Part shown: positions 18,866-46,088 of the stretch, piece by piece
How the letters are laid out: every line of letters begins with the position of its first letter
Numbering within the stretch: the stretch's first letter is position 1
Source: Verrucomicrobium sp. GAS474
GTDB lineage: Bacteria; Verrucomicrobiota; Verrucomicrobiia; Methylacidiphilales; GAS474
Assembly: GCF_900105685.1 (NCBI RefSeq)
Contig: NZ_LT629781.1
Span: 1,178,001 to 1,242,000, forward strand
Length of the DNA: 64,000 nt
Direction of reading: 5' to 3'
Made by a program: the position numbers and the translations under genes
The notes under the pieces: model-generated
The model's input: the letters and a program-made list of their open reading frames with translations, nothing else
What the model was told of the DNA's origin: nothing
Database searches by the model: none

Positions 18866-18881
18866 ATATGATCGATCAAAA
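18866..18881 (-). promoter_or_regulatory. Candidate operator upstream of the sialidase-like gene
   Basis: ATATGATCGATCAAAA contains the perfect 10-base palindrome TGATCGATCA and matches 14 of 16 positions of the perfect palindrome at 39174-39189. It begins 25 bases upstream of the sialidase-like start codon. A third copy precedes the FadR-type regulator gene. Confidence 0.5.
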
Positions 18882-18948
18882 TAAAGGAGAAGAAAAAAGC
18901 GACGGTGACGTTGGAAAGAGAGCGACGGATTGAGCGGCGGAAAACGGA

Positions 18949-20388
18949 TCAGATGACGCCACGCCGCGCTTCAAGGGCGGCACGGATCTCGGCCACTTTC
19001 TCCCGCGTGAGGGGATAGCGGGAGATCGCGAAAAGGGAGACGATGAGGAAGAGGAGAGGGGTGCCGATGTAGAAGAGCTTTAGGGTGGCGAGGACGTGGG
19101 GGTCCTGCGCGGCGTGGGGGCCGCTCTTGAAGCCGCAGAGGACGAGAAGCACCCCGCTCAGCCCGCCCGAGAGGGCGGTGGTCGCCTTGAGAGTCCATGA
19201 GAAGACGGCGGAGAAGCTCCCCTCGCGACGCTTGCCGCCCATCCACTCGTCGTAGTCGGCGACGTCGGCCTGCATCGAAGGGACGACGAGCCAGAGGCCG
19301 ATCCCGACCGGTCCCATGAGGAGGGGCGGGATCACCTGGAGCCACGGATGGGCGGGGGTGACGAAGACCGAGACGGAGAGGGAGCCGCAGAGGCCGCTGA
19401 GGACCGTGATGTAGAGGAGGGTCTTCTTGTCCCAGCGATTCGCGATCCAGGTGCAGAGGGGGATCGCCAGGAGGTTCGGCGCGAAGAGGGCCGTGGCGAT
19501 GACGCCGCCGATCTTCGTCGCCAGGTGGAGGTCCCCGCCACAGGCGTAATAGGCGTTGAGGTAGAAGCCGAGGGTGCCGATAAGGCCGAAGCCGAAGGTC
19601 TTCGTGAAGACGATGGTGATGATCCAGAGGAAGGGCCGGGTGGAGAGGGTCTGCTTCAACCCCTGCCAGAGCGGTTCCTTCGGCTGCCGACTGGCCTCCT
19701 TCGCATAGTAGCGCTCCCGCACGAAGAGGCCGGGGAGGACACCGAGGACGAGGGTCAACGCGGCGAGGCCGAGGCTGATGTAGCGCATGCCGTTGGCGAG
19801 GTCGGGTGCCCCGCCGGGAAGGCGGCTGAAGATCGGCAGCGAGGCGAGGGCGAGGATCCAGCCGCCCGCGAGCTGGAGGAATTGCTGGGCGTAGGCGCGG
19901 TAGGCGGTGATGTTCGTCCGCTCGTTGTAGTCGGGGGACATCTCCAGCTGGAGGCTGTAGTAGGGCATGGCCCAGATCGAGAAGCAGCTGTAGAAGAGGA
20001 TGCCACCGAGGAGGAGCCACGCGAACATCTGCCATTCGGGGAGGCCGTGGGGCATCCACCAGATGACCGGCATCGTGAGCGCGGTGAGGATCGCGCCGAG
20101 GACGATGAACGGTTTCCGCCGTCCCCAGCGCGTCCGCGCGTTGTCGGAGAAATTCCCCATCACCTGGTCGGCCGCCGCGTCCCAGATCCGCCAGCACATC
20201 AGGACGATGCCGAGGAGTGCGGGATTCAGGCCGAGGGCGATGTTGAAGACCGGCGTCAGGTTGCCCTGCGGAATCCAGATCGCGGTCCCCTCCACGGGGC
20301 CGCCGAGGCCGTAGGCGACCTTTTGCCAGAAAGGGACGCGGTCTTTTTCTGGAATCTTTCCGGGGCTCTGCGAGGGAGTCAGGTGCAT
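18949..20388 (-). CDS. GPH-family sugar:cation symporter (MFS superfamily)
   Basis: A 479-residue inner-membrane transporter with about 12 hydrophobic segments. The glycoside-pentoside-hexuronide signature is clear: MGNFSDNARTRWGRRKPF near residues 65-82, then IWAMPYYSLQLEMSPDYNERT. It should import a mono- or oligosaccharide with a cation. The ATG at 20388 lies five bases after the stop of the pseudopilin cassette protein A gene, so the two are probably cotranscribed. A much longer frame reading back to 23262 is an out-of-phase reading of protein A. The second GPH transporter at 58237 also lies downstream of a cassette and shares the same motif wording. The substrate cannot be read. Confidence 0.85.
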   Translation of the reverse strand: MHLTPSQSPGKIPEKDRVPFWQKVAYGLGGPVEGTAIWIPQGNLTPVFNIALGLNPALLGIVLMCWRIWDAAADQVMGNFSDNARTRWGRRKPFIVLGAILTALTMPVIWWMPHGLPEWQMFAWLLLGGILFYSCFSIWAMPYYSLQLEMSPDYNERTNITAYRAYAQQFLQLAGGWILALASLPIFSRLPGGAPDLANGMRYISLGLAALTLVLGVLPGLFVRERYYAKEASRQPKEPLWQGLKQTLSTRPFLWIITIVFTKTFGFGLIGTLGFYLNAYYACGGDLHLATKIGGVIATALFAPNLLAIPLCTWIANRWDKKTLLYITVLSGLCGSLSVSVFVTPAHPWLQVIPPLLMGPVGIGLWLVVPSMQADVADYDEWMGGKRREGSFSAVFSWTLKATTALSGGLSGVLLVLCGFKSGPHAAQDPHVLATLKLFYIGTPLLFLIVSLFAISRYPLTREKVAEIRAALEARRGVI

Positions 20389-20393
20389 TTCAT

Positions 20394-23300
20394 TTAATTG
20401 GCGACCGGTTCGAGGAATTGGGAGACGACTTTGCCGGTGTAGCGATCGATCGCGACGTGGAGCCAATAGCGGCGTTCCCCGTCGACGATGAAGTCGTTGA
20501 GCGTTTTCGCGTTGCTTCCGTAGCGGCCCGACTGGGCGATGACGTCGACGAGGAGATTCCACGTCCGCCCGTTGGCGATGTCGGCGAAGGAGCGGGTGAA
20601 GGCCTCGCGCTTGAACTTGAAGCGGTCGGGCAGCGAGGCGGCGATCTTGTCGGCCAGGAGGGGGAGGTCGGCGGCGCCGCGGACGACGAGGGTTGGATTG
20701 GTGACGGGGCCGAGCTGCGTGCGGATCGCCTGGGCGAGGGTCGTGGCATCGGAGGCGAGAAGGGGCGTCCCTCCGGCGACGGACGGATCGCGGTAGGCGT
20801 TGGTCAGGATGGTTGCGAGGACGGGCTGGCTGGCGCTGTTCAGGCTGACGACTCCGGCGCGGAGGGCCTCGGTGTTCTCGTTCACGCAGAAAAGGTCGAG
20901 GAGGCCGCCGTCGGCGCTGTCCTGCGAGGAGAAATTGAGCGACTTCCAGGGTGTGTCCCGGAAGGCGTACCCCATCTCGGCGACGGAACGGAAGGGCCGG
21001 TTCAGGACGACGGGGCGGGCGTCGTTCGTCGCCCCGGCGAGGGGGATGCCGAAGGGGCTGTAGACAGTGTGGCTGGCGGTGGTGGCGGGATTCGCATCGG
21101 CCTTGCGGATCGCAGCGTCGGGATCGGCGTAATGGCTGGAGGCGAGGGAGGAGGAGACATTGTAGGCGTAGTCGGCGAGGGGAATTGAGGTGGCCCCGGT
21201 TGTGTTGAAGGTCGGAATCGCGTTGTAGTTGAAGGGAACCCCCGAAGCGCTGTTCACGAGGTTCATGCTGTTGGAAAGCATGTTGAAGGTGGCACCGAGG
21301 AAGAAGCCGAAGCGACTGGAGCGCGGATCGGGATGGGTCATCGAGATGAGGGCCGCGCTGCCGTTGTTCGTGAAGCCGTTGGCGAGGTTGAGCTGGTTGC
21401 TCACGCTGGCGAAGTTGAGTCCGGTGTTGTTCGCCGTGACGTTGAAGTTCGGGATGATCTGATAGGGGATCCAATTCGCGCCGACCTGCTTCTCCAGCAC
21501 CATGGTCACGGGGGTCGGGAACGTGTTGGCGATGTAATTGCCCGAGGTGGGGAACTCCGGAAGCTTTGGCATCGTCACCTGGCCGATGAAGAGGCCGACC
21601 TCGCGGACGACGCCCGCGACGGCGGGATAGGGGAACTTCGCCATGTCGCTGCACGAGGCGAGGACGGCGTCGGTCGTGTGGAGGGCGTCGATGTCCTTGA
21701 AGGTCCGGGCCGTAGTCGTCTGGAAGGCGAGGACGGTGTTGAGGTGGGTGAGTGTCGGGCTCGTGAGCGTGAGCGGGATGGCGGTGTTGTAGGCGGTGAT
21801 CGAGGTCTTGCCGTTGAAGCGGATGTGGAATTGGCCGGGAAGCGCCGAGGCGGCGTTGCGATGGGGATTCCACAGGGTGAAGAAGAGGTAGCCGTCGATG
21901 TAGGCGTTGGTGTTCGGCGCGAGCACCGAGATCTGGTCGCGGAAATGGTCCTGGGCGAACCAGGCGATGTAGGGGAGGTTCTCGACGCCGGTGATCGAGA
22001 GGTCGGTGAGCTGGGCTGGGGTTGTCCCGCCGAGGCGGAGGACGGTGGGGGTGTCGTCGCTGTCGTACTGGTCGATGAGGTTGAGGCCGATGGCGAGGAG
22101 CTGGCGGGTGGCGCTCCCGTCCTGGGTCGTGGGGAGGCCGTTGAAGTTCCCGTTCGTGGCGCCGAGCGATCCGGCATAGATCCCCGCCTGGAGGACTTCC
22201 CAGAACGTCGGCTCCCGGCCCGAGATCTGGTCGAGGGTCTTGATCGTCGGGAGGGTGGTCGTCGGGGTCGGCGTCGGGACGTCGGGGTCGAGGTAATCCC
22301 ACTGGCCGTCGGCCCGCTGCTGCATGGAGAAATATTTCTGGAGCAGCGCGGCGTTTCCCGCGGGGTCGGCGAAGAGGGCGAGCCGGGAGAGGGGGAATCG
22401 GTGCTTGAGCAGCGGCTCCCCGACGACCGCGTCGGTATTGTCGGACCGGCGGAAGGCCTGGGTCACCCGGATTTTCAGGACGTTGGGATTGGTGATGTCG
22501 TTCCGGGCGGGCCGGGCCGGATCGGGGAGGAAGGCGGGGCCGTCGACGTCGCGTGAGGCGGTGCCGAGGTAGGGAAGGGCGGCGGTCCCGATCAGGCCGG
22601 GATTCGCCTTCACGTAGTCGATCAGGTCCTGTCGTCCGACGAGGGCCTGGTCCCCGCTCGCGACCTTGACGAAGCCGGTCGTCGCGGCGGCGACCGAGTT
22701 CGTGTAGGCGGCGGCGGTGGCGGCGGTCGTCGGATTGCGCCACGTGACGAAGGAGCCCGCGTTCTTCACGCCGGGAAGGGTCGAGAGATCGACCTGGGGG
22801 AGGAGGCCCCGCGTCGTCGCGAAGTCGGTGTTGTTGAGGGAGGCGGGGAAGCCCGCGACATTCGCGTCGAGGAGGCCGCCCTCGTCGTAGATCGCGTAGG
22901 CGAAGCGGCCGATGGCGCATTGGGGGTTCGAGGGGGCGGCGTCGGCAAGGGCCTGGAGTGTGGGGAGGGCGGTGACGGCGTTCGTGACTGTTCCGCCCCG
23001 GGTGACGACGATCCAGTCGGGCGGCGTGTAGCCGGAGGGGAGCGCCGGGGTCGTCCCCGTTCCGGGATCGCCGAGGAGGCCCGCCTTGTTCCAGCGGTTC
23101 GCGCCGATGAAGCGTCCGCCCGCCGCCGCCGTCCGGGTGCTGTTGTTCGCGGCGGCGCGGACGGGGGCGGGGGAGCCGGTGTAGGCGGCGCCGCTCCAGG
23201 AGGGAAGCCCGGCGGTGCTTTGCTTCACCAGGTTCGCGAAGCCCTGGTCGTTGACCCGGCACGGGAGCCCCGCGGCGGGGGTGGCGGGGAGGTAGAGGGT

Positions 23301-23573
23301 GGCGGTCCCGGCGGCGGTCGATTGGGAGCCGGAGACGATCTCGGTCCGCAGGTCGCCGTCGATCGTCTCGAGGGCGGCGCGGGCGACGAGGTCGGCACGG
23401 AACTGGCCGGCGCTGGAGAAGGAGATCTGCCGGTTGAGGGCGCTCTGGCTGAAGAAGGCGAGGAGGATCGCCGTGATCAGGACGAGGATCGCGAGGGTGA
23501 TGATGAGGGCGCTTCCCGTCTCCGTCGCGGCGGCGGCGCGGGCGGGGCGGCGGCCGGGGAGGTCAGGGGACAT
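20394..23573 (-). CDS. Verru_Chthon cassette protein A (large pseudopilin-complex component)
   Basis: A 1059-residue protein with an N-terminal type IV-pilin-like membrane helix, GSALIITLAILVLITAILLAFF, but without the Glu at position +5, as in the PilX/GspK type of minor pseudopilin. A long extracytoplasmic domain follows; FAYAIYDEGGLLDANVAGF is the kind of segment seen in this family. Its place after small pseudopilins of classes D, B and C identifies it as protein A of the Verrucomicrobia-specific cassette. The start overlaps the end of the class C gene by 11 bases. The molecular role of the family is unknown; a pseudopilus tip or scaffold is plausible by analogy with GspK. Confidence 0.8.
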   Translation of the reverse strand: MSPDLPGRRPARAAAATETGSALIITLAILVLITAILLAFFSQSALNRQISFSSAGQFRADLVARAALETIDGDLRTEIVSGSQSTAAGTATLYLPATPAAGLPCRVNDQGFANLVKQSTAGLPSWSGAAYTGSPAPVRAAANNSTRTAAAGGRFIGANRWNKAGLLGDPGTGTTPALPSGYTPPDWIVVTRGGTVTNAVTALPTLQALADAAPSNPQCAIGRFAYAIYDEGGLLDANVAGFPASLNNTDFATTRGLLPQVDLSTLPGVKNAGSFVTWRNPTTAATAAAYTNSVAAATTGFVKVASGDQALVGRQDLIDYVKANPGLIGTAALPYLGTASRDVDGPAFLPDPARPARNDITNPNVLKIRVTQAFRRSDNTDAVVGEPLLKHRFPLSRLALFADPAGNAALLQKYFSMQQRADGQWDYLDPDVPTPTPTTTLPTIKTLDQISGREPTFWEVLQAGIYAGSLGATNGNFNGLPTTQDGSATRQLLAIGLNLIDQYDSDDTPTVLRLGGTTPAQLTDLSITGVENLPYIAWFAQDHFRDQISVLAPNTNAYIDGYLFFTLWNPHRNAASALPGQFHIRFNGKTSITAYNTAIPLTLTSPTLTHLNTVLAFQTTTARTFKDIDALHTTDAVLASCSDMAKFPYPAVAGVVREVGLFIGQVTMPKLPEFPTSGNYIANTFPTPVTMVLEKQVGANWIPYQIIPNFNVTANNTGLNFASVSNQLNLANGFTNNGSAALISMTHPDPRSSRFGFFLGATFNMLSNSMNLVNSASGVPFNYNAIPTFNTTGATSIPLADYAYNVSSSLASSHYADPDAAIRKADANPATTASHTVYSPFGIPLAGATNDARPVVLNRPFRSVAEMGYAFRDTPWKSLNFSSQDSADGGLLDLFCVNENTEALRAGVVSLNSASQPVLATILTNAYRDPSVAGGTPLLASDATTLAQAIRTQLGPVTNPTLVVRGAADLPLLADKIAASLPDRFKFKREAFTRSFADIANGRTWNLLVDVIAQSGRYGSNAKTLNDFIVDGERRYWLHVAIDRYTGKVVSQFLEPVAN

Positions 23574-24357
23574 TGAAGAGGTGCTGGTAGAGATGGAGGC
23601 CCTGGATGGCCTGCTTCGGGACGCCGGGGGCGAAGTCGGCGCGGAGGATCTGGGCGCTCCACGTGGCGATCGGCTCCTCCCCCGCGACGCTGTCGGAGAG
23701 GGCGCGGGAGAGGGCGCCGAGCTGCGCCGGAGAAAGGAGGAGGCGGCTCTTCGCGTCGAGGACCGCGATGGCGACGATCACCGCGCCGACGTCGCTGTAA
23801 TCGCTCGCGGCGGCGAGGCTCACGCGGGTGGCGGGCGAGGCGGTGTTGAGGAGGTAGGAAAATTCGAGCCGTAGGACGCCCTGGGAGAGGACCTCGTAAT
23901 CTTCGGCGTTCGGCGAGGCCAATGCCTGGGTGAGGAAGAGGGGATGGCTTCCCCCGGCCAGCCAGTCGGCCCCCGTCGCCCCGCGCTCCAGCTGGAAGAG
24001 CCGTCCGGGGGCCGCCTCCTGGATCCGGTAGCCGATGAGCGAGACGTTGCGCGCGCCGCTGTAGCCGCCGACGGCGCTGTAGAAGCGGATCGCGTCGTTT
24101 CCCGCCGCCTTCGTCCACGTCATGCCGAGGTCGGCGCGCTGGGGCCGCGCGGCGAGGTCGGCGGCGAGGCGGTTGAAGAAGATGCGGGCCTGGCCCGCCC
24201 CGTCGAGTTTCTTCGTGTTGATCCCGATCGCCTGGCCCGTGAGGGTGATGACCTGCGCGAGGATCATCACGAGGATCGAGAGGACGGTGACCGAGACCAG
24301 CAGCTCCAGCAGGCTGAAGCCGACGGCGCTTCGGTGGAGGGGAGAAGGAAGGAGCAT
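23563..24357 (-). CDS. Verru_Chthon cassette protein C (pseudopilin)
   Basis: A 264-residue protein with a type IV prepilin leader: short basic start, cleavage before Phe in GFSLLELLVSVTV (Glu at +5), a hydrophobic helix to about residue 40, then a soluble domain. The helix continues into LDGAGQARIFFNRLAADLAAR, a feature shared with the homologous protein at 51788 (ARIESFQDARAAFEAVTRAL). It should be processed by a PilD-type peptidase, not found in the window. It lies 34 bases after class B and overlaps the protein A start, in one operon. Confidence 0.8.
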   Translation of the reverse strand: MLLPSPLHRSAVGFSLLELLVSVTVLSILVMILAQVITLTGQAIGINTKKLDGAGQARIFFNRLAADLAARPQRADLGMTWTKAAGNDAIRFYSAVGGYSGARNVSLIGYRIQEAAPGRLFQLERGATGADWLAGGSHPLFLTQALASPNAEDYEVLSQGVLRLEFSYLLNTASPATRVSLAAASDYSDVGAVIVAIAVLDAKSRLLLSPAQLGALSRALSDSVAGEEPIATWSAQILRADFAPGVPKQAIQGLHLYQHLFNVP

Positions 24358-24391
24358 GGCGGTGGGGTCGGGCCCGGATCGGCAGGTCGGT

Positions 24392-24850
24392 CTAGGGCTG
24401 GGGGAAGGAAGCGATGCCCTCCACCGATTCGGCGTTGGCCGTGCTGGCGGCGGGCCAGCTGATGCGGAAGCGGGCGAGGTAGGGCTGCAGGGTTCCCTTC
24501 GGCGGCGGCGTGAAAGTGTAGGAGACCCGCCAGCGGGCCTGCTCGAAGCGGGCCGTCGTCCGGTGATCGTCCCTCACCCCGAAGGAGGCGGAGACGGGGG
24601 CCATGGCGTTCGTGAGCGCGGGAAGGGCGTAGAGGGCCGAAGCGGCCGTCAGGGGAGTCGCCTTCCGGTCGGCGATCAACTCGCTCAGGATGTTCAGCGC
24701 CTCGCTTTCCTGGAGGGAATCGCGGGTCGACTGGAGGCCGGCGGGGAGGAGGGCGAGGATGGCGACCACCGCGAGGGTGGCGATGCCGAGGGCGAAGAGA
24801 ACCTCGATGAGGGAGAAGGCCGGGGAGGGGCGGGAGGGCGCGGGTCTCAT
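24392..24850 (-). CDS. Verru_Chthon cassette protein B (small pseudopilin)
   Basis: A 152-residue prepilin-like protein. The processing site and helix are AFSLIEVLFALGIATLAVVAILALLPAGL-type (leader of about 11 residues, Glu at +5), followed by QSTRDSLQESEALNILSELI and a short beta domain. It parallels the 148-residue homologue at 51355, which has the same LALIPVGL ending of the helix. ATG at 24850 overlaps the stop of class D (ATGA), so translation is probably coupled. Function within the cassette is unknown. Confidence 0.8.
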   Translation of the reverse strand: MRPAPSRPSPAFSLIEVLFALGIATLAVVAILALLPAGLQSTRDSLQESEALNILSELIADRKATPLTAASALYALPALTNAMAPVSASFGVRDDHRTTARFEQARWRVSYTFTPPPKGTLQPYLARFRISWPAASTANAESVEGIASFPQP

Positions 24851-25488
24851 CGGCGGAAAATCTGGACCTGTCCGGTGAGGGTCGCCACCTGGAGGACGGC
24901 GATGTCGCGTTCATTCGTGCTTCCGTCCCGCGTCGGCTGGAGGCCGATCTCGATCCAGTGGGAGGCGCCGCCGGTCGGCTTGATCGCCGCCTCGCCCTGG
25001 GGACCGAAGCGGAGGACCTTGGCGAAGGTGACGGTCTCGGCCCCCGCCTTGCGCTGGAAGGAGGGGAAGGCGGAGCCGGCGAGGTCGTCCCCGTTCGCCG
25101 CCATGCCGGAGAGCTGCGCCGCCAACCCCCCCGTCGTGCGGAGCGCGAAATGGTCGTAGGCATGGAGCTGGGCGATCGGGACGAGGTTCCCCGTGTCGAG
25201 GTCGTCGGACTGGCCGGTCGTCCCCGCCATGAGGGCGACGGTCAGCCGGTGGGCCGCGAGGTCCTCGCTGAAGCCGACCCAGACGTAGGTGTTGTGGGAC
25301 ATGGCATAGGAGCGCGATTCGTCGAGGAGCAACGGCAGGCCGTTCACGGCGCGATTGATTTCCGAGGAGCGACTGAGGCCGGTCATCGAGGGAAAGGCTG
25401 CCGCCGCTAAAATGGCAATGATACCTATCACAACTAGAAGTTCAACCAGAGTGAAAGCGCAACGGCAGGCTCGGGTCGAAGGTTTCAT
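24847..25488 (-). CDS. Verru_Chthon cassette protein D (pseudopilin)
   Basis: A protein of about 213 residues opening the leftward cassette. The prepilin site CAFTLVELLVVIGIIAIL (Glu at +5) is the classic GspG/H-like type, followed by a mature domain with SYAMSHNTYVWVGFSE, the strand region shared by class D proteins. The ATG at 25488 (MKPSTRACRC leader) is preferred over a TTG at 25512 because it gives a normal short basic leader. It heads the operon D-B-C-A-symporter, with its promoter in the AT-rich gap shared with the divergent beta-galactosidase gene. Confidence 0.8.
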   Translation of the reverse strand: MKPSTRACRCAFTLVELLVVIGIIAILAAAAFPSMTGLSRSSEINRAVNGLPLLLDESRSYAMSHNTYVWVGFSEDLAAHRLTVALMAGTTGQSDDLDTGNLVPIAQLHAYDHFALRTTGGLAAQLSGMAANGDDLAGSAFPSFQRKAGAETVTFAKVLRFGPQGEAAIKPTGGASHWIEIGLQPTRDGSTNERDIAVLQVATLTGQVQIFRR

Positions 25489-28899
<3,411 letters not shown>

Positions 28900-28935
28900 G
28901 AAAACTATTGAATAAACAGTCTATTTGCTATAAAG

Positions 28936-30609: not shown

Positions 30610-30634
30610 GGCTCGATCCGGGATTTTTTACGAG

Positions 30635-32785
30635 ATGATTTTTTCTATGACGGCAATGGCTCGGCGGGGATCCTCCCGCATGCGGTGGTCGGCTTTTCTG
30701 GGGGCGGTCCTCCCGTTCCTCTTCTCCCTGGGCGGCATGGGCGGCGACGCCCGGGCCGAGGATGCCCAGCCGTTGACGGGCTCGCTCGAGGTCGACGCCT
30801 CGCAGGTGCTCGGGCCGGTGAACCGGCTGGTCTTCGGCCACAACATCGAGGCGGCCGATTCGGCGGGGATCTTCGGCCCCACCGTGAAGGACAAGATCTA
30901 CCGGGGCGACGGCCTATGGCTCCCGAACGAGGGGAAGCCCTCCGAGGTGATCCTCGGGAAGGCGCGCGAGATCGGGATCAGCATGCTCCGCTATCCCGGA
31001 GGGTGTCTGGTCCACAACTTCGACTGGCGCAAGGCGGTCGGCCCGCGCGACAAGCGCGGCGACTGGCAGTTCGGCGTCGACGAGTATCTCCAGGTCTGCA
31101 ACGAGCTGAACATCGAGCCCCTCATGATGGTCAGCGACTATGTCCTCCCCGCCGAGGAGATGCCCCGCTTTGCCGCCGACCTTGTCGAATACCTCAACGC
31201 CCCCGCGACGCCCGACCATCCCTGGGCGATGAAGCGGAAGGAATGGGGCCATGCCGAGCCCTACAAGGTGAAGTGGTTCGAGCTGGGGAACGAGTCCGAC
31301 CACGGCAACCACGACGTCGTCCCCCGGCGGCAATACACGCCCGACGGCTATGCGAAGTATGCCGTCGATTGCATGGCGGCGATGCGGGCCGTCGATCCGA
31401 CGATCAAGATCGGCATCCTCTCGGCGACCGGCGCGCCGCCCGAGTCGGAGTGGAACAAGATCGTCTACCGGACGGCGGGAAAGAAGGCCGACTTCATCGT
31501 CGCCCACATGTACCTCGGCGGCTCCGGCGTGACGATCAACGACGACAATGAGCGGCAGGCCTATCTCACGGGCTTTTCGACCACCCGCGCCTACCAGAAC
31601 ACCCTCGACCGCTACCGGGAGAAAATCCTTCTCGAATGCGGGCGGAACGTCCCCCTGGCGATCACCGAGTTCAACAACTCCCTGGGCGGCGACAAGCCGA
31701 AGCCCTACCGCTTCACCCTCGCGGGCGGGCTGATCGCCGCCGACGTCATCCGCCTCCTCCTCCTGCCGGAGAACAACATCGCGATGGCGAATTTCTGGCA
31801 GATGTTCAACGGCTACTTCGGCTCGATCCGCATCGATTTCAAGACGACCCCCGATTATCAGACGAAGGATCTCGCCGCCTTCCGGCTCTTCCGGCTGTGG
31901 GGCCAGCACTTCGGCGCCGACCTCGTGAAGACGACGGTCGACGGGCCGAAGATGGAGGTCGACGGGATGGGCGGGGTCTCTCCCTCGCGGGGAACCGACT
32001 TCCGTCCCCCCCTCCTGATCGCCGACATTCCCGTCGCGTCGGAGATCGATCTCGGCGCCCTCGACGATCCGAAGCTGAAAGGCGAGATGACGCCCGACGG
32101 CGTGCTGAAGGTCGACTTCGACCAGATCACCGGGAACCATTACCCCTGCATCGGCCACTACAGGAAGCCGGGCGAAGTCGGCCCCGACGGCGCCGACTAC
32201 ACGCTCTCCTGCGAGGCCCGTTTCGTCCCCGGTCCGGGGAGCGCCGACGCGCCCATCGCGATGGGCCTGGGCGACGACCGGGGTTGGGGGAAATCGCACA
32301 GCGCGATCACGATCACCGGGATCAACGGTCCGGAGTGGAAGGAGATCTCGGGCACCCTCCGGGGGCTCAAGGACGCGCCGGGAGTCCAGATCGTCCTCCG
32401 GTTCGAGTCGGGGGCGAAGGTCATCTCGGGCCATCTGGAGGTCCGCAACATGAAGCTCCGCGCCATGACGAAGGCGACTTTCCCCGCCTACGACCTCCTC
32501 ACCAGCTCGGCCAGCCTCTCCAAGGGCGGCGACCGGCTCTATGTGATGGTCTTCAACAAGAGCGAGAACAAGCCGATCGCGACCGAGGTGCGGGTGAAGG
32601 GTTTCGCCGCCGCCCGCGTCCTCCGCTGGGAGGTCAACGGACCCTCGCTTGGGGCGATCGACGGTGTCCGCGACACGAAGGTCGGCGAGGCCGCGCCGGT
32701 CGACGGCGAGGCCGTCGCGATGACCTTCCCCGCCCATTCGATGACCGCGCTCGAATTCGAGAAAGCCGACGGGGCCAGGAAATAA
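30635..32785 (+). CDS. Alpha-L-arabinofuranosidase, GH51-like, secreted
   Basis: A 716-residue protein with a signal peptide (RWSAFLGAVLPFLFSLGGMGGDARAED region). The GH51 features are FGHNIEAAD, RYPGGCLVHNFDWR, the acid/base Glu220 in WFELGNES and the nucleophile Glu345 in AITEFNNS. A beta-sandwich region with a carbohydrate-binding-like insertion follows (about residues 450-610), and HSMTALEF closes the protein as in GH51 C-terminal domains. It should release arabinose from arabinan or arabinoxylan side chains outside the cytoplasm. ATGs at 30635, 30647 and 30656 are possible starts. It is 15 bases before a lectin-fold gene and shortly before an AraR-type regulator, which fits an arabinose theme. 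Confidence 0.85.
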   Translation: MIFSMTAMARRGSSRMRWSAFLGAVLPFLFSLGGMGGDARAEDAQPLTGSLEVDASQVLGPVNRLVFGHNIEAADSAGIFGPTVKDKIYRGDGLWLPNEGKPSEVILGKAREIGISMLRYPGGCLVHNFDWRKAVGPRDKRGDWQFGVDEYLQVCNELNIEPLMMVSDYVLPAEEMPRFAADLVEYLNAPATPDHPWAMKRKEWGHAEPYKVKWFELGNESDHGNHDVVPRRQYTPDGYAKYAVDCMAAMRAVDPTIKIGILSATGAPPESEWNKIVYRTAGKKADFIVAHMYLGGSGVTINDDNERQAYLTGFSTTRAYQNTLDRYREKILLECGRNVPLAITEFNNSLGGDKPKPYRFTLAGGLIAADVIRLLLLPENNIAMANFWQMFNGYFGSIRIDFKTTPDYQTKDLAAFRLFRLWGQHFGADLVKTTVDGPKMEVDGMGGVSPSRGTDFRPPLLIADIPVASEIDLGALDDPKLKGEMTPDGVLKVDFDQITGNHYPCIGHYRKPGEVGPDGADYTLSCEARFVPGPGSADAPIAMGLGDDRGWGKSHSAITITGINGPEWKEISGTLRGLKDAPGVQIVLRFESGAKVISGHLEVRNMKLRAMTKATFPAYDLLTSSASLSKGGDRLYVMVFNKSENKPIATEVRVKGFAAARVLRWEVNGPSLGAIDGVRDTKVGEAAPVDGEAVAMTFPAHSMTALEFEKADGARK

Positions 32786-32800
32786 TCGGGAAGCAAAGCC

Positions 32801-33493
32801 ATGAAACGACTCCGTTGCGCCTCGCTTTTCCTCGGCCTCACCCTTGCCCTGGCCCGTGCCGAGACGACGGTGCAGGACGGCTTCAACAAGGAGTCCCGGA
32901 ACGCCCTCGACGGGGCGGCGACCGAGACCGGCGAGTCGAGCTGGGAGGCGACGCCGAACGTCCGGATCCTGAAACAGGACGACGGAGATGGCGCGGTGGG
33001 AGTGCGCGACGAGCAGGCCTTCCTCCTCCGGTTGCCGGTGACTGCCGAAGCGGAGAACGTGGCGATCGAGGCGCGGGTCCATCCCGACGCGAAGGACCCG
33101 AACCGGTGGATCGGGGTCGGCATGGGGGCGAAGGGAACCCTCGATGCCATGAACGTGAATATCAACTGGCCGCTGGGCGTCTACCTCGTCCTCGACGGGA
33201 AGGGGCACTATCAGTGCCTCTACAATCCGGGCAGGGAAGGGGTCGCCACCACGCAGCAAATCCAGGGCGGCGACGCCACCGGCTTCTCGCCGGGCGGCTG
33301 GAACCGGCTGAAGGTCGAGTACCACCGGAAGAACAATACGGTTTCGATGTGGGTCAACGGGGAGAAGGTTGTCAGCAGCGCGAATCTCGAGAAAAAGGGA
33401 TTCGTCTCCAGCATCGCCGTGGCGGGGCTCTCCGGTTACGGCATGAACCCGGACCAGCGGAACATCGACGATGTCGTCCTCACGACACCCTAG
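32801..33493 (+). CDS. Secreted concanavalin-like (LamG-type) protein
   Basis: A 230-residue protein with a signal peptide (MKRLRCASLFLGLTLALARA) and one beta-sandwich domain. WNRLKVEYHRKNNTVSMWVNGEKV is the hallmark strand pair of LamG/laminarin-like or DUF1080-type folds, and the ending NIDDVVLTTP is the usual last strand. It lacks recognisable catalytic residues, so glycan binding is the simplest reading. It follows the GH51 gene by 15 bases and probably shares its transcript. The N-terminal lectin-like units of the protein at 34760 end in a similar way (WIDDVLLYP). Confidence 0.65.
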   Translation: MKRLRCASLFLGLTLALARAETTVQDGFNKESRNALDGAATETGESSWEATPNVRILKQDDGDGAVGVRDEQAFLLRLPVTAEAENVAIEARVHPDAKDPNRWIGVGMGAKGTLDAMNVNINWPLGVYLVLDGKGHYQCLYNPGREGVATTQQIQGGDATGFSPGGWNRLKVEYHRKNNTVSMWVNGEKVVSSANLEKKGFVSSIAVAGLSGYGMNPDQRNIDDVVLTTP

Positions 33494-33565
33494 AACTCTT
33501 AGAGGCTTTGCCCGACCGGAACCCCTTTTATTCGGCAGTCTAATGTGGTAATTTGTGATCGAATT

Positions 33566-34660
33566 ATGGCTCCCCTTCAATCGACAACCAAATTGGACGA
33601 AATCTTCAAGATCCTTGAAGATCGCATTCTTCAGGGTGTGTGGCCGGTCAACGGCAAGATTCCGCCCGAAGTGGAGTTGGCCGAGGAATTGGGCTGCAGC
33701 CGGTTCACGGTGAGTCGGGCCATTACCCGACTGGCCCATGAGGGTCTGGTCGAGCGGCGCACCCGGACGGGAACGCGCGTGATCCGTTCCAATTCGCAGC
33801 GGGGTGCCGCCCTGCTCGAGCTGAACGCCTTCGCCTTCGTCTTCCCGAGTGACCGGCACGAAGGCATCGCGAAGACGGTGAGCGGATTTTCCGGGGCCGC
33901 CCATCAGGCGTCGCGCCGCATGGTGACCCTGACGACGGGGACCGATTTCCGCAAGGAAGCCGAGATGATCACCCGGCTCAAGGAATTCGACGTGAAGGGC
34001 GTCGTCCTTTACTCGTTGGCCGGGTGCGGGACGCCGGAGGACCAGATCAACGTCCTGCAGATCCTGGGCCGCTCCCAGGTGCCGATCGTCCTCGCCTGCA
34101 TCAGCATGCCGGGAATCGACCTGCCCGCGGTGATCTCCGACGATTTCGACGCCGGACGGATGATGACCGATTACCTGATCGGCAAGGGGCTCAAGCGGAT
34201 CGGCTTCTTCGGGCCGGGCCGGGCCGTCGGCGCGTTGATGGGGTACCAGTTCGCGATGGAAAACGCGGGGCTCCCCGTCGATCCCTCCCTGGTGAACCTC
34301 CCGACGACGATGCATCCGAATTTCGAGGACGCCTTCGCCGAGCCGACGCGGCTGGCCGAGGCCTATCTCAAGGGATGCCGCGGGCTGGAGGGCGTGGTCT
34401 GCAGCTTCGACCTTCTGGCGCGGGCGCTCCTTCGCGTAGCCAAGAAGAACGGCCTCCGCGTCCCGCACGATCTGAAGGTGGTCGGGGTCGACGACTTCGC
34501 CCAGGACCCCGGGGAAATTCCCCTGACCACCTACCATATTCCGTATGAGGCGATCGGCCGCCGCGCCTTCGAGCGGCTCGACGAAGTGGTGCGGGGGATT
34601 CCGCAGCCGATTCCGATCGAGCGGATCAAGGGACACGTGGTGGTGCGCGAGAGCGCCTAG
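33566..34660 (+). CDS. AraR-type transcriptional regulator (GntR winged helix with LacI-type sugar-sensing domain)
   Basis: A regulator of 364 residues from the ATG at 33566 (a GTG at 33545 adds seven residues). Residues ~8-75 are a GntR winged helix-turn-helix with PPEVELAEELGCSRFTVSRAI and the wing VERRTRTGTRVI. The remainder is a periplasmic-binding-protein-like sensor of the LacI type (VVGVDDFAQDPGEIPLTTY near the end). This hybrid is the architecture of Bacillus AraR. Lying just downstream of the GH51 arabinofuranosidase, it likely represses arabinoside genes until a sugar binds. The sequence TTTGTGATCGAATT immediately before its start could be an autoregulatory site. Confidence 0.82.
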   Translation: MAPLQSTTKLDEIFKILEDRILQGVWPVNGKIPPEVELAEELGCSRFTVSRAITRLAHEGLVERRTRTGTRVIRSNSQRGAALLELNAFAFVFPSDRHEGIAKTVSGFSGAAHQASRRMVTLTTGTDFRKEAEMITRLKEFDVKGVVLYSLAGCGTPEDQINVLQILGRSQVPIVLACISMPGIDLPAVISDDFDAGRMMTDYLIGKGLKRIGFFGPGRAVGALMGYQFAMENAGLPVDPSLVNLPTTMHPNFEDAFAEPTRLAEAYLKGCRGLEGVVCSFDLLARALLRVAKKNGLRVPHDLKVVGVDDFAQDPGEIPLTTYHIPYEAIGRRAFERLDEVVRGIPQPIPIERIKGHVVVRESA

Positions 34661-34693
34661 TTCGAGATTCGAGATTCCCAAAAAGGATGCATC

Positions 34694-34724
34694 AAAGGCC
34701 GGGGGGATTCTTCGGGCTTTTTTA
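34694..34724 (+). terminator. Imperfect Rho-independent terminator
   Basis: AAAGGCC (34694-34700) and GGGCTTT (34714-34720) form an imperfect stem followed by a run of T (34718-34723), 34 bases after the stop of the AraR-type gene. It marks the end of that transcript before the next secreted protein. Confidence 0.45.
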
Positions 34725-34759
34725 TTCCTAAATTTAAATAATTACAACCACTCCAATAT

Positions 34760-37567
34760 ATGAAGCTATCTGCCGGTTTTATGGGTAACATTCGAGCCCA
34801 TTTTATCTCGAATGGGCGGGTTCTTCTTTTTCTTCCCCTGGTGCTTCTGTGCGGAACCACCTCCCTGCGGGCGACGCAGGGCGGGCCGCTGAACGTCGGT
34901 TATCTCGTCGACGAGCAATTCGCCTACTTCGGGAATCCCTCGACGGGAGACGACAAGGTCTCCGATTGGGACATCGACTCGACGGGAGGGACGATCTCCT
35001 CGGTCTACTGGAAGTACGCCAGCCTCGGCGGCGCCCTCAAGATGAGGAAGAGCTTCATTCCGCAGGCGACGGGGTCGATCACGCTCGAGTTCTGCTTCAA
35101 TCTCCAGGCCAAGATCGACGGGAATATCTGGGCGATCCGCTCCGGGGATACCAACGCCGTTGTCTTCAAGACCTCGGGCGGGGCGTTCGGCTACGAGACT
35201 TCGACGGGCGGCTTCACCGCCCTCGTCGCGAACTATGCGGCGCAGACGAACTACGCCGTCCGGGCGACGCTCTATCCGGCGACTCACGGCTTCGACGTTA
35301 CGGTGAACGGCGCGCGGGCGGCGGGGATGCCGGTCGCCATGAGGAACACGGTGAGCCAGGTCGATTCCGTCTACATCGAAACGCCCGCGGGCCTCGGCGA
35401 ACAGCAGCTCTACTTCGTGACCGTCACGAAGGGGTACATCGTCAACGAACGCTTCACGTGCGCCACCGCCGGGATTACCCCCAGCGGCTGGGGAGCCACG
35501 ACGGCGGGCGGCCTCTGCAGCCCGCAGCTGCTCTCCACCCGCACGCCGATCCCGAATCCCAAGCAGCCGATGGGCTTCCGCATGGACGACACCTCGACGA
35601 CGGCGATGGCGACCCTCAATTACAGCTTCACGCCGAACGGCTCGAAACTGGCGTGGGAGTACAAGTTCCTCCTGCCGGCGAAGGTCGACGGGGTGATCAT
35701 GTATCTCCGCAACGGGAGCTCGGGCGGCGTGACGCTCACCACCTCGGGGGGGAACATCGCCTGTTACTCGACGACGTCCTCGACGACGACGGTATGGAGC
35801 AACTACGTGGCGAACGTCTGGTACGTGGTCCGCGTGGTCCTCGATCCCGCGACCGACCTGGCCGATGTCTACATCAACGGGAAATACCGCACCACGATCG
35901 GCTATTCCGGCGGCAACCTCAGCAGCATGGCCTTCGGCACCTCGATGTCGGGGATGGGGACGATGTGGATCGACGACGTCCTCCTCTATCCTTTCCAGGA
36001 ACGGGCCGCCGACTACGTGCCCGACGTCGCGCCGATCTCCCACGGCTCCCTCAAGGTCGGGATGCAGACCTTCTTTGCCGGATGGCGGAACGGGCAGCAC
36101 CTCGGCTGGGACTGGATCTACCGGTATCCGAATCACGATCCGGCCCTCGGCTTCTACGACGAGGGGAACAGCGAGGTGATGGATTGGGAGCTGAAGTGGA
36201 TGTCCGAGGCCGGCGTCGATTTCTTCATGGACTGCTGGTACGGGAGCACGAACGGCGATCCGATCAAGCAGCCGACCTTCGAGTCGACCCAGGGCGCGAT
36301 CCACGAGGGCTATTTCTACGCGAAGAACACCGGCAACGTGCAGTTCGCCATCGCCGATTTCTCCCTTTCCGGCGCGACGACCACGGCGGCGTTCCAGAAC
36401 GCGATCGTCCCTTACTGGGTCGAGTATTATTTCCGCGATCCCCGCTACATGCGGATCGACAACAAGGCGGTGGTCGCCTTCGGGAACGCCACCGACTGGG
36501 TCAACGGCCTGGGGACGGCGACGGCGCTGGCCGAAACCAATTTCCTGCGGACCCAGATTTCGGCCGCCGGGTACAGCGGCGCGATCCTCCTGGCCCGTTG
36601 CGGCGACGCGAACACCGCCATCCTGAGCCAGCTGAGCGCGGCCGGATTCGACGCCTGCTACACCTACGCCTGGATCTCCAACAACATCACGACGATCCAA
36701 AGCGCGTTGACGAGCCAGAAGACCGCCGGGGCGTCCGCCACGCCCCATGCGATCTACCCGATCGGCGTCTCCTCGCAGGGGCGCAGCGGCGAGGCGTGGG
36801 ACCAGACCGGCCCCGGTTACATCAGCCCCGCCGATTTCACGACGATGAACGGGTGGATGAAGAACACCTTCGCCCCCAGCATCTCCAGCGCCTCCGCGAC
36901 GGCGGCGGGAGGGAAGATGGTCCTCTTCGACAATTGGAACGAATTCGGCGAGGGCCACTACATCGCCCCGACGGCCCTGCTCGGCTACGGCGCCACCGAC
37001 GGCTTCGGCTACCTCAACGGAATCCGCAGCGTCTTCCTCCCCGCCTCGACGGTGACCAACGTGGTGCCGACGGCCACGCAGAAGGCGCGGATGAATATCC
37101 TCTACTCCCGTGCCTGGACGGGCCGGACCTGGGCCTTCGACTCGATCTATCCCGACACCGAGGGTTGGATGGCGAACTTCCAGGTCTCCAGCCTCGACCA
37201 GCAGGGCGGCTACCTCAAGGGCTACTCCGGGGGGGCCGACCCGTCGATCATCTCGGCCGACGGTTACAACATCCCCACCGCCACCTACCGCCACGTCGAG
37301 GTGCGGATGCAGACCGTCTCCTCGGGAACCGCCGCCCGGATCTACTTCACCTCCAATAGCGACGGGACGATGAGCCAGGCGAAGTCCCAGGCGGCCTCGA
37401 CCGCCCTCGTCAACGACGGGGCCTACCACGTCTACACGTTCGACATGTCGACGGTGCCGGGCTGGACCGGGGCGAGCGCCATCCGGCGGCTCCGTTTCGA
37501 TCCCATCGACATCGGCGCCTCGGCGAGCGACGTCTTCTCCATCGATTACATCAAGGTCCTGCCTTAG
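34760..37567 (+). CDS. Large secreted WbsX/GH99-like protein with N-terminal lectin-like domains
   Basis: A 935-residue protein with a signal peptide (VLLFLPLVLLCGTTSLRA). Residues ~45-220 and ~225-415 form two related concanavalin-like units, each opening with a phrase of the type 'DEQF/NERF' and containing paired strands (the second ends GTMWIDDVLLYPFQ). Residues ~430-790 are a TIM-barrel-like domain with FFAGWRNGQHLG, DFFMDCWYGST and, late, LFDNWNEFGEGHYIAPT, the signature of the WbsX/GH99-like group. The C-terminal ~140 residues are a beta-sandwich ending FSIDYIKVLP, resembling a carbohydrate-binding module. WbsX-type domains are thought to cleave or modify mannose- or rhamnose-rich glycans; the activity here is unproven. 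Confidence 0.7.
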   Translation: MKLSAGFMGNIRAHFISNGRVLLFLPLVLLCGTTSLRATQGGPLNVGYLVDEQFAYFGNPSTGDDKVSDWDIDSTGGTISSVYWKYASLGGALKMRKSFIPQATGSITLEFCFNLQAKIDGNIWAIRSGDTNAVVFKTSGGAFGYETSTGGFTALVANYAAQTNYAVRATLYPATHGFDVTVNGARAAGMPVAMRNTVSQVDSVYIETPAGLGEQQLYFVTVTKGYIVNERFTCATAGITPSGWGATTAGGLCSPQLLSTRTPIPNPKQPMGFRMDDTSTTAMATLNYSFTPNGSKLAWEYKFLLPAKVDGVIMYLRNGSSGGVTLTTSGGNIACYSTTSSTTTVWSNYVANVWYVVRVVLDPATDLADVYINGKYRTTIGYSGGNLSSMAFGTSMSGMGTMWIDDVLLYPFQERAADYVPDVAPISHGSLKVGMQTFFAGWRNGQHLGWDWIYRYPNHDPALGFYDEGNSEVMDWELKWMSEAGVDFFMDCWYGSTNGDPIKQPTFESTQGAIHEGYFYAKNTGNVQFAIADFSLSGATTTAAFQNAIVPYWVEYYFRDPRYMRIDNKAVVAFGNATDWVNGLGTATALAETNFLRTQISAAGYSGAILLARCGDANTAILSQLSAAGFDACYTYAWISNNITTIQSALTSQKTAGASATPHAIYPIGVSSQGRSGEAWDQTGPGYISPADFTTMNGWMKNTFAPSISSASATAAGGKMVLFDNWNEFGEGHYIAPTALLGYGATDGFGYLNGIRSVFLPASTVTNVVPTATQKARMNILYSRAWTGRTWAFDSIYPDTEGWMANFQVSSLDQQGGYLKGYSGGADPSIISADGYNIPTATYRHVEVRMQTVSSGTAARIYFTSNSDGTMSQAKSQAASTALVNDGAYHVYTFDMSTVPGWTGASAIRRLRFDPIDIGASASDVFSIDYIKVLP

Positions 37568-37599
37568 GGGGCAGCCGGGACCGGGTGCCCGTCGCTGGA

Positions 37600-38322
37600 T
37601 CAGGCCTTCCTGGCCGGCCGCCGGTCCCGCTTGTCGACGACTTCGATCGCGGCCGCCTTGTCGAGCAGCTCCTGCTGGTGCTTGGCGCCGTAGCGGACGT
37701 GGTCGCGCGTCGTCCGTTCGGCCTTGTCGGGATCGCCGCTCATGAGGGCGTCGAGGAGCTTCCGGTGCCAGTGGGCCGGGCTCGGCCACAGCTTGCCGCT
37801 GACCCAGGTGAAGAACATGAAGTGGCGGCGCCAGAGACGTTCCACTTCCCGGATAAGAAGGCGTGATTCGCTGAGGCGGGCCACGGCGAGGTGGAATTCC
37901 TGGTGGACCTCCATGTCGGCGCGGGAGTAGGTCCCGGCCTTCCGCAGGAGCGCGTCGACCCGGTCGGCCAGCGCCTCCAGCCGGGGAAGGTCGGAGGCCT
38001 TGATTTTCCGCGAGACGATGCGGGCCACCTGGCATTCCAGCGCCTCCCGGAGGATCGATTCGTCGGTCAGGCGCTGCGGGGTGACGCGGGTCACCCGCGT
38101 GCCGTACATGGGGGCGCTCTCGGCGAGGCCGTCGGTCTCCAGCCGCCACAGGGCTTCGGAAACCGTCGCCTGGCTCAGGTGGAACCGCTGGGTCAACTCG
38201 CGGCGGACGAGGCGCGTCCCGGGCGGCAGCTTGCCGCTCAGGATCTCGAATTCGAGGTTCCGGAAGAGGCGGACCGCCTGGGTTTCAAACTCAAATTCGG
38301 CACCTTCGGGCTTTAAATTCAT
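37600..38322 (-). CDS. FadR/FCD-type GntR transcriptional regulator
   Basis: A 240-residue regulator starting at the ATG at 38322; the frame remains open further upstream only by crossing the neighbouring gene. Residues ~15-80 are a GntR winged helix (LVRRELTQRFHLSQATVSEALWRLE, wing ESAPMYGTRVTRV). Residues ~90-225 are an all-helical FCD domain with the metal/ligand His residues in MEVHQEFHLAVA and TRDHVRYG. FCD regulators usually sense hexuronates, other sugar acids or short organic acids. It lies downstream of the D-lyxose isomerase gene on the same strand, with a palindrome-rich gap between them, so it may control that gene and itself. Confidence 0.8.
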   Translation of the reverse strand: MNLKPEGAEFEFETQAVRLFRNLEFEILSGKLPPGTRLVRRELTQRFHLSQATVSEALWRLETDGLAESAPMYGTRVTRVTPQRLTDESILREALECQVARIVSRKIKASDLPRLEALADRVDALLRKAGTYSRADMEVHQEFHLAVARLSESRLLIREVERLWRRHFMFFTWVSGKLWPSPAHWHRKLLDALMSGDPDKAERTTRDHVRYGAKHQQELLDKAAAIEVVDKRDRRPARKA

Positions 38323-38357
38323 GGGGAAGAACGGCTCCAGCCGTTCTAACCGGGAAC

Positions 38358-38398
38358 GTGTTTTGGTGAAATCAAATAAATGAGATCGATCAAAACAC
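38358..38398 (-). promoter_or_regulatory. Operator region of the FadR-type regulator gene
   Basis: GTGTTTTG (38358-38365) and CAAAACAC (38391-38398) are a perfect 8-base inverted repeat. Inside it, 38380-38395 reads ATGAGATCGATCAAAA, matching 13 of 16 positions of the palindrome at 39174-39189. It lies 36-76 bases upstream of the regulator start, as expected for autoregulation. Confidence 0.45.
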
Positions 38399-38417
38399 CC
38401 ATCCGCTACCCGCGAAG

Positions 38418-38441
38418 CCCCGCTTCCTCTCAGGAGCGGGG
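38418..38441 (-). terminator. Stem-loop at the end of the D-lyxose isomerase gene
   Basis: CCCCGC (38418-38423) pairs with GCGGGG (38436-38441); further pairs inside extend the stem. It overlaps the stop codon of the isomerase. There is no T-run on the minus strand, so it is a weak or Rho-type terminator at best, or a processing hairpin. Confidence 0.3.
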
Positions 38442-39158
38442 GGTCGGGTACTCGTGGCAGAGGTAGCAGGTGCGCGGCGCGTCCTCGAGGAGGGTGGGAA
38501 ACCGGCAGGCCCAGGGATCGGCGAAGACGTTGTCGTTCCAGTCGTCGCAGACCGAGGATACCTCGCTGCTGACGGCATAGCGCCCGCCGGCGATCGGGGT
38601 GCCGCTTCCCTCGGCGGCCCAGAATTGGTGGAACGTCCGGGGCGGGATGCTCAGGCTTTCGCCGGGACGGATGCGGATCTCCTCGCCCGCCGGCCTGGCG
38701 TGGGAGAAGCCGTCGATCTGGACGGTCAGCGGGCCGTCGCCGGGCCGCTCTCCCGGGCCGACGGGCCGGAGGACGATGATGACGTCGCCCCCGCCCCGAT
38801 TGATGATGTCTTCCCGCTTCGAGCGGTGGTAATGCATCGGCGATTTTTGTCCCTCCGGCTCGATCAGCAGCTTCTCGGCATACGATTTGGGATAGCGCGG
38901 ATCGCTCGGCCTGCCGTTGCGGAGAGTGAAGAGGCACCGGCCGATCTCCGAGAAGCGGCCGCTGCCGAAGTCGGTGACATCCCAGCCGAGCATGCAGTCG
39001 CGGATCTCGGCCGCCTTGGCCCCGGCGGCCCCGTCCCACTGGTCGACGCTCCAGTCGGCAAAGGGGGGAAGCGGGATGTGCAGTGCGGCGAGGACCGCCC
39101 GGGCAACCTCGACCGAGTGGTTCACCAGCGAGCGGGAAAGGGTGCCGGATGGAGTCAT
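38430..39158 (-). CDS. D-lyxose (D-mannose) ketol-isomerase, cupin family
   Basis: A 242-residue protein matching the D-lyxose isomerase family. The metal-binding cupin segment KSPMHYHRSKREDIINRGGG has the His-x-His...Glu ligands, and PPRTFHQFWA supplies the later His. The C-terminal EVSSVCDDWNDNVFADP is also typical. The ATG at 39158 gives the standard N-terminus; a longer frame reaches 39224 but would run through the palindrome at 39174. It converts D-lyxose to D-xylulose and usually also D-mannose to D-fructose, so it would feed hydrolysis products into central metabolism. Its probable regulator gene lies downstream. Confidence 0.85.
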   Translation of the reverse strand: MTPSGTLSRSLVNHSVEVARAVLAALHIPLPPFADWSVDQWDGAAGAKAAEIRDCMLGWDVTDFGSGRFSEIGRCLFTLRNGRPSDPRYPKSYAEKLLIEPEGQKSPMHYHRSKREDIINRGGGDVIIVLRPVGPGERPGDGPLTVQIDGFSHARPAGEEIRIRPGESLSIPPRTFHQFWAAEGSGTPIAGGRYAVSSEVSSVCDDWNDNVFADPWACRFPTLLEDAPRTCYLCHEYPTPRS

Positions 39159-39173
39159 TAAAGGATGATATCG

Positions 39174-39189
39174 ATTTGATCGATCAAAT
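39174..39189 (-). promoter_or_regulatory. Perfect 16-base palindrome upstream of the lyxose isomerase gene
   Basis: ATTTGATCGATCAAAT is a perfect palindrome 15 bases upstream of the isomerase start. Related sites precede the FadR-type regulator gene (38380-38395) and the sialidase-like gene (18866-18881). The position suggests a repressor operator overlapping the start of the transcript. Confidence 0.55.
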
Positions 39190-39256
39190 TCAAGAGGAGA
39201 GTAAGCTGCCTGCGGCAGTCCCATCCCTCCGCGCCCCTCCCCCAGTGTCGATCGCC

Positions 39257-40117
39257 CTACCCCGCGGCGCTGGCGCGGCGCTGGATCTTGCGGTAGGCGG
39301 CGGGGGAGAGGCCCAGGCGGGCCTTGAAGGTGCGGGAGAAGTGGAAGCGGTCGGTGAAGCCGGTTTCCTCGGCGACGGCGTCGATGGTCTTTCCTTCGGA
39401 GGTCAGGCGGCGGGCGGCGATCGAGATCCGCCGCTCGATGCCGTATTGGGCGGGAGTCATGCCGACGGCGCCCCGGAAGCGGCGGATGAAGTGGTCGGTG
39501 CTCATGTCGCAGAGGCGGGCCAGTACGGGATTGTCCGGAGGGGAGGCGAGCGAGCGGTCGATGGCCTCCAGGGCGGGGCCGATGTCGATCGATCCGGCGA
39601 GGGCGCGAAGGGAGGCTTCCCGGTCGTCGGCCGAAAGGGACTCCATCGCCATCGCCGTCGCGGCGTGGGCGAGGGCGCTCGCCCAGGCGAGGCCGGTGAA
39701 GCCGAGCTCCTTCTCCCCGTTGCCGCCGAGGCCCGCCTGCCAGCGGCGGCAGAGGGGATCGATCGCGCCGTCGGCGGGGAGGAGGAGGGGCCGGTCGAAG
39801 AGGCGGCGAATGAGGGAGGGGGGGAATCCGGTGACGTAGAAGTGGAGGAAATCCTGGAGGACCGGCCGGGTGGTCCCGGTCTGGAAGCGGACCCAGGAGG
39901 GGATCAGGTGGATCCGTCCGGGGAGGAGCGGGAAGGCGCGGCCCGCGCAGGTGACTGAAGCCCCGGAGCGTTGATGTGCATAAAGACGCCAGAACGGGCT
40001 TTGCAGATCGTAACGCCAGAGCGCGCCGATCTCCATCCGCTTGGATTCCACCACCTCGATCCGGAAGTGGCGGAGAAGGCCGTCGGCGAGGCTGACGGGG
40101 AGAGCGCCGGTTTCCAT
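39257..40117 (-). CDS. AraC-family transcriptional regulator
   Basis: A 286-residue regulator. The N-terminal ~150 residues are a cupin-like sensing domain (WRLYAHQRSGASV, GRIHLIPSWVRF). The C-terminal ~95 residues carry two helix-turn-helix units: LARLCDMSTDHFIRRFRGAVGM and IDAVAEETGFTDRFHFSRTFKARLG, followed by the typical LSPAAYRK. It is divergently transcribed from the GHL6-type hydrolase gene, with 73 bases between starts, and most likely activates that gene when a sugar is bound. Confidence 0.85.
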   Translation of the reverse strand: METGALPVSLADGLLRHFRIEVVESKRMEIGALWRYDLQSPFWRLYAHQRSGASVTCAGRAFPLLPGRIHLIPSWVRFQTGTTRPVLQDFLHFYVTGFPPSLIRRLFDRPLLLPADGAIDPLCRRWQAGLGGNGEKELGFTGLAWASALAHAATAMAMESLSADDREASLRALAGSIDIGPALEAIDRSLASPPDNPVLARLCDMSTDHFIRRFRGAVGMTPAQYGIERRISIAARRLTSEGKTIDAVAEETGFTDRFHFSRTFKARLGLSPAAYRKIQRRASAAG

Positions 40118-42188: not shown

Positions 42189-42217
42189 GGGCTGCCGCCC
42201 AAAGTGCAGACCAGACT

Positions 42218-42892: not shown

Positions 42893-42897
42893 CGCCC

Positions 42898-44058: not shown

Positions 44059-44179
44059 GGGCGGGGGGGAGCATGCCCGATTCCGGGCCGCCGGTTCAAG
44101 GGGCAAACGGCAGGTCCGCCCCGGGACCGGCGGAGCGCCCCATTGTCATCGTCCCGGAAAGGGACTATGAAGGGAGGGA

Positions 44180-45037: not shown

Positions 45038-45155
45038 GATCCCCCTTGGTAGTCTGGGGGATGCTACTCGGTGGTGACCGGATTTCGACACTCTTTGCTT
45101 AAAAGGGGCAACCGTCCCGAATGGAGTACCTACGCCTAAAGGTTAAAGTGGGGTA

Positions 45156-45986: not shown

Positions 45987-46012
45987 AAAGGCGCGGGCCG
46001 ACTCTCGTTTGA

Positions 46013-46023: not shown

Positions 46024-46088
46024 CCCCAGGGTGATTTGCGGGGGCCTCTCCCGTCGATGCTAGCCTTGTGATAACCTCCCCCCACCCG

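Follow-up and report, generated by a model that had tools for sequence, protein, structure and literature searches.

Three similar 16-mer palindromes lie ahead of three genes in the Verrucomicrobium sp. GAS474 genome, and their likeness raises the question of which protein, if any, acts at them. The window, the whole stretch of 64,000 nucleotides that we analysed, covers bases 1178001-1242000 of the complete genome (3,763,444 bp). In our reading, which we hold with high confidence, the palindromes are operators of an autoregulated FCD/GntR (VanR-type) repressor encoded at 37600-38322. Since the sites travel with the regulator and the target genes in distant relatives, all three very probably belong to this one local regulator, which would use them to control its own gene, that of a sugar isomerase and a sialidase-like one. 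The "FadR-type" label given to it in the initial annotation stands for the FCD/VanR group of the GntR family and not for the fatty-acid regulator FadR.

Three palindromes precede three linked genes

The proposed operators and the genes behind them are:

39174..39189, no strand: operator 1, ATTTGATCGATCAAAT, a perfect palindrome, 15 bp ahead of the lyxose isomerase start
38380..38395, no strand: operator 2, ATGAGATCGATCAAAA, the weaker site, 57 bp ahead of the regulator start, predicted to serve autoregulation
18866..18881, no strand: operator 3, ATATGATCGATCAAAA, 24 bp ahead of the sialidase-like gene start
37600..38322, minus strand: transcriptional regulator of the FCD/GntR type (VanR group), proposed to bind all three operators (Pfam, fold, comparative loci)
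38430..39158, minus strand: gene of the D-lyxose isomerase family (PF07385), predicted regulated target (Pfam and PDB 3kmh)
17555..18841, minus strand: BNR-repeat sialidase-like gene, 428 aa, predicted regulated target, with no obvious signal peptide by eye

The initial annotation had reported the three 16-mers, and all were confirmed in the sequence at its coordinates. It had also claimed a shared placement relative to the genes. With corrected start codons (ATG at 39158 for the lyxose isomerase, 38322 for the FadR-type gene and 18841 for the sialidase-like gene) this holds, and the placement is remarkable because all three sites lie 15-57 bp 5' of a start, within 20.3 kb and beside functionally related genes. 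The shared orientation that it had noted carries no information, since a palindrome has none.

When the whole genome (3.76 Mb) was scanned with WTTTGATCGATCAAAW, we found 22 places with up to three mismatches, namely one each with zero, one and two mismatches and 19 with three. Up to two mismatches left only the three sites described above, so that the genome-wide scan proposed earlier returned places that are all directly 5' of gene starts in one 20-kb stretch. An order-4 Markov background built from 139 kb of DNA leads one to expect 3.3 such places per genome, and three were observed. The exact TGATCGATCA occurs four times in the genome: at two of the sites, at 1139078, which is clearly intragenic, and at 3422484, within an open reading frame. 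The observed count of TGATCGATCA with one mismatch was equalled in 14 of 100 shuffles of the window. The number of sites is at chance level, while their placement and conservation exceed chance.

A weight matrix built from other genomes only gave its three highest scores in the window to the same sites (30.1 at 18866, 29.9 at 39174 and 20.9 at 38380), and operator 2 is clearly weaker than the other two. Among the eight best matrix scores in the window we found no further operator 5' of the Verru_Chthon-like cassette, the AraC-type or the AraR-type gene, barring a poor match at 33553 (8.7, near the AraR start). Three near matches were rejected as operators: 1169165 is within an ABC-transporter-like gene, 3601969 also looks intragenic, and window positions 5040-5055 are inside an E1 dehydrogenase gene.

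Proposed operator 1 fills the spacer of a predicted promoter

The isomerase product matches PF07385 (7.6e-71) and the solved D-lyxose isomerase PDB 3kmh (E 3.3e-52), which places it in this family. Its 210 bits are below the NCBIfam equivalog cut-off of 350, hence the label is kept at family level. A promoter could be predicted ahead of the gene:

39165..39193, minus strand: sigma-70-like promoter TTGAAT-17-TATCAT, spacer filled by operator 1 (1 found against 0.1 expected by shuffling)

Its -10 box ends 6 bp before the ATG, and therefore the predicted transcript would be nearly leaderless. By the same criteria, no equally clear promoter was found at the 38380 and 18866 sites. An operator between predicted -35 and -10 boxes has the layout of a repressor site, as with the VanR-type regulator Atu1419.

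The regulator combines a GntR helix-turn-helix (PF00392, 2.6e-12) with an FCD domain (PF07729, 1.8e-18), the domain make-up of the VanR-type FCD group. Its predicted fold (pLDDT 86.8) matches the solved FCD regulators PmiR, Atu1419, McbR and TM0439 with E values of 1e-10 to 1e-8. The predicted sites also agree with the FCD subgroup in being a short palindromic operator near the regulator's own and its target promoters. The recognition helix reads S-Q-A-T (residues 50-53). Four histidines, His140, His144, His186 and His208, are invariant among 11 aligned homologs and have spacings of 4 and 22 as in Atu1419, with His and not Asn as the first putative ligand; by analogy, this spacing suggests a metal-assisted small-molecule site. 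At the cut-offs used, the regulator, the isomerase and the BNR gene each have a single match in the GAS474 genome.

From these features we infer physical binding, repression rather than activation, an inducer and a metal. A regulator dimer would bind TGATCGATCA, each TGAT half-site taking one recognition helix. At the isomerase promoter the operator fills the -35/-10 gap, so the bound regulator would exclude RNA polymerase, and at the sialidase-like gene binding 24 bp before the start codon would have the same effect. The weaker copy ahead of the regulator's own gene would provide autoregulation. The inducer, a small molecule, would most likely come from the sugar or sugar-acid pathway of the isomerase, the propeller protein and perhaps a GPH symporter, as one of its intermediates. 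It would bind the all-helical FCD domain, probably at the His-rich metal site, and the DNA would then be released.

The direction of control in this mechanism is drawn from site position, and the regulator might instead bind the same sites and activate, or both repress and activate. We consider this improbable, since the positions are polymerase-blocking ones (between -35 and -10 at the isomerase promoter of the window; in relatives, 6-16 bp ahead of the isomerase gene) and the related Atu1419 is a repressor.

Sites, regulator and isomerase recur together

The case for an autoregulated FCD repressor was followed into other genomes with a profile search, which retrieved 80 loci with regulator homologs. 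The nearest are L061, L062, L063 and L066 (64%, 55%, 51% and 42% identical). At all four, the regulator is divergent from a D-lyxose isomerase 56-68% identical to that of the window, a BNR gene of the 605-aa type is present, and TGATCGATCA lies between regulator and isomerase. The operator core is 18 bp from the isomerase start in the window and 16, 11, 11 and 6 bp from it in L061, L062, L063 and L066. The initial annotation had made its proposal depend on conservation in related genomes, and this was found: four further genomes have TGATCGATCA just ahead of the isomerase gene, at 6-16 bp from its start.

A second site is present in L062 and L063, ahead of the gene that immediately follows the regulator, and at L113 two sites are 4.8 kb from the regulator. 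Homologs farther from the window regulator have TGATATATCA in their own upstream regions. The general form TGATNNATCA is present upstream of 24 of the 80 homologs, and an exact match was not found there in the remaining 56 loci. It makes up 25 sites in 34 kb upstream of regulators, compared with 30 sites in the 746 kb of surrounding DNA, an enrichment of about 18-fold. L064 and L065/L073, homologs with BNR or isomerase genes linked to them, have no detectable TGATNNATCA; their helices are different ones (PIP, AIA). Both BNR types adjoin the regulator at L067, with TGATATATCA sites, and in genome G326 homologs of both are in one same-strand gene run; the two TGATATATCA sites that precede this run are some 6.4 kb away from the regulator.

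At L152 and L246 (G326:C181), three TGATATATCA sites lie between the regulator and GH123/esterase, lectin-like and BNR genes, an arrangement that suggests a larger polysaccharide regulon in that family.

The regulator is present in 7 of 78 sampled near relatives, its own genome counted, and absent from both congeners; a close homolog occurs in 5 of 387 genomes sampled from the phylum. Because of this rarity among near relatives, conservation was tested mainly in distant, patchy ones. A 14-mer scan of the 78 relatives gave scattered matches in 37 genomes, which are uninformative without the regulator.

The site follows the FCD regulator

The sites could belong to the target genes rather than to the regulator, and control loci separate the two. 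Among 30 isomerase loci, the site was found in both of those with an adjacent close relative of the regulator and in none of the 28 without one (in one of these 28, a stretch resembles a distant regulator homolog weakly, at 35%). It was found at none of 29 loci with homologs of the window BNR gene and no adjoining regulator, and at AraR-type homologs TGATNNATCA was upstream in 1 of 30. Taken together, these counts mean that the site follows the FCD regulator and not the target genes.

The same counts bear on the AraR-type GntR/periplasmic-binding regulator at 33545-34660, which the initial annotation had offered as a second candidate. It is encoded in the same region as the sites and shares the GntR-type helix family, and the outer ATTTG/CAAAT agrees with the AraR box, which has the outline ATTTG...CAAAT. 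However, the inner six bases differ from that box at four positions, the gene has no TGATNNATCA upstream and only that one homolog locus does, and the conserved clusters yielded no close AraR relative. We therefore regard binding by the AraR-type protein as very unlikely. This regulator belongs to a group that, in family f9 of the same order, is expanded to 13-17 copies per genome at E 1e-40 (G010, G020).

Action of the AraC-type regulator (39257-40117) through the palindrome finds hardly any room: it is a neighbouring regulator gene just upstream of the isomerase gene, but AraC-type proteins usually bind direct repeats, and its homolog was not found in the conserved clusters, where the FCD gene is always present. 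Chance likeness among GATCGATC palindromes in a GC-rich genome would agree with the site counts, but we give it almost no credence, as the three best places all precede linked genes, and the motif, which tracks the regulator, is found ahead of the same genes in four other genomes.

The operator centre covaries with the recognition helix

Binding by the FCD regulator is also consistent with a covariation between operator centre and recognition helix, in which Ala/Ser-Thr goes with CG and x-Pro with AT. Thr is present at HTH position 40 in six regulators (QAT, QST, LST), of which five have CG-centred sites nearby and the sixth (L113) has them at 4.8 kb. Regulators with Pro at this position that have sites are nearly all of the AT-centred type; L069, with the helix PMP, has TTTGACATGTCAAA. 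In the tree, one change separates CG-type from AT-type regulators (94/86), so the covariation counts as a single evolutionary event rather than many independent ones. For the FadR subfamily, published correlations connect the central bases with position 39 and set Pro against Ser at position 40 (PMC4494728).

The earlier proposal of a FadR-type regulator running a small autoregulated regulon is thus supported: TGATCGATCA recurs along with the regulator, the isomerase and the BNR gene, and a different helix goes with a different operator centre. A broader reading, to which we assign about even chances, is that Verrucomicrobiota and their neighbours hold an FCD/GntR clade with the non-canonical operator TGAT-NN-ATCA, the centre of which goes from AT to CG with HTH positions 39-40 (x-Pro to Ala/Ser-Thr). 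This clade would control a so far undescribed catabolic pathway, based on a lyxose-isomerase homolog and on sialidase-like propellers that act on a substrate other than sialic acid.

The sialidase-like gene and its surroundings

The product of the sialidase-like gene matches BNR_2 (5.8e-21), and its model, of low confidence (pLDDT 64.5), is similar to sialidases with some 15% identity; the label describes a fold class. With 23-26% identity to the 605-aa type, the 428-aa protein of the window represents the other branch of the superfamily. Its neighbour likely belongs to the same pathway:

18949..20397, minus strand: sugar symporter of the GPH type (MFS_2), immediately 5' of operator 3, neighbour of the BNR gene

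A correspondence between the MFS genes in L063 and those of the window was considered and rejected, as they are not alike. At L220/L248 (G398:C333), a 57% homolog of the window BNR gene adjoins a lyxose isomerase homolog and the regulator is not next to the BNR gene; the two enzymes are therefore linked independently.

Other genes of the window were noted in passing. On the minus strand, a run at 20394-25512 encodes three pseudopilin-like proteins and one protein of 1059 aa; it resembles a Verru_Chthon cassette through weak TIGR02599, TIGR02598 and TIGR02596 matches, all under cut-off. L061 has homologs of all four genes beside its regulator/isomerase cluster. The genes at 51295-56676 (plus strand), possibly a second cassette of like kind, have homologs in L065, where these adjoin the regulator and the isomerase. 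Several long reading frames without Pfam match are located at 40325-48806.

The regulons of Verrucomicrobiota are little described. Our literature searches found no paper for the combination of Verrucomicrobia, GntR and regulon and none for lyxose isomerase with GntR, and the search for the operator motif returned only papers whose titles and abstracts point to other subjects. The sites tie a lyxose isomerase, a sialidase-like family and a regulator into one testable unit, which gives a handle on the role of sialidase-like propeller proteins. They also offer a natural case of a GntR helix and an operator centre changing together.

Comparison with known systems

AraR has a GntR-type helix and an ATTTG...CAAAT outline in common with the present system, but it differs in its LacI-type ligand domain, and the site is missing upstream of nearly all AraR-type homologs. 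E. coli FadR is likewise a GntR-type regulator with an all-helical ligand domain, but its ligand is acyl-CoA and its operator is of the TKGT/ACMA type, the consensus of the FadR subfamily (PMC4494728). The GT...AC core of this consensus is absent from TGATCGATCA and TGATATATCA. A precedent for such an exception to the TKGT/ACMA rule is BioR, also of the GntR family, whose operator TTATMKATAA is a 10-bp TNAT-N2-ATNA palindrome without the GT/AC core. BioR, compared here by operator form, differs in the second base and in serving the biotin genes of alphaproteobacteria.

The VanR-type Atu1419 (PDB 6za3) is alike in its GntR helix-turn-helix, its FCD domain and a 10-bp palindrome. Its palindromes are at or between the -10 and -35 boxes (PMC7797058), and sites that overlap -10 or sit between -10 and -35, together with autoregulation, are predicted from sequence here as well. 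The metal ligands of Atu1419, Asn137/His141/His192/His214, correspond to putative His140/144/186/208, with the same spacings of 4 and 22 residues. The two differ in the operator (ATGTATACAT there, TGATCGATCA here), in HTH position 38 (Arg there, Gln or Leu here), in the first metal ligand (Asn there, a putative His here) and in their target genes.
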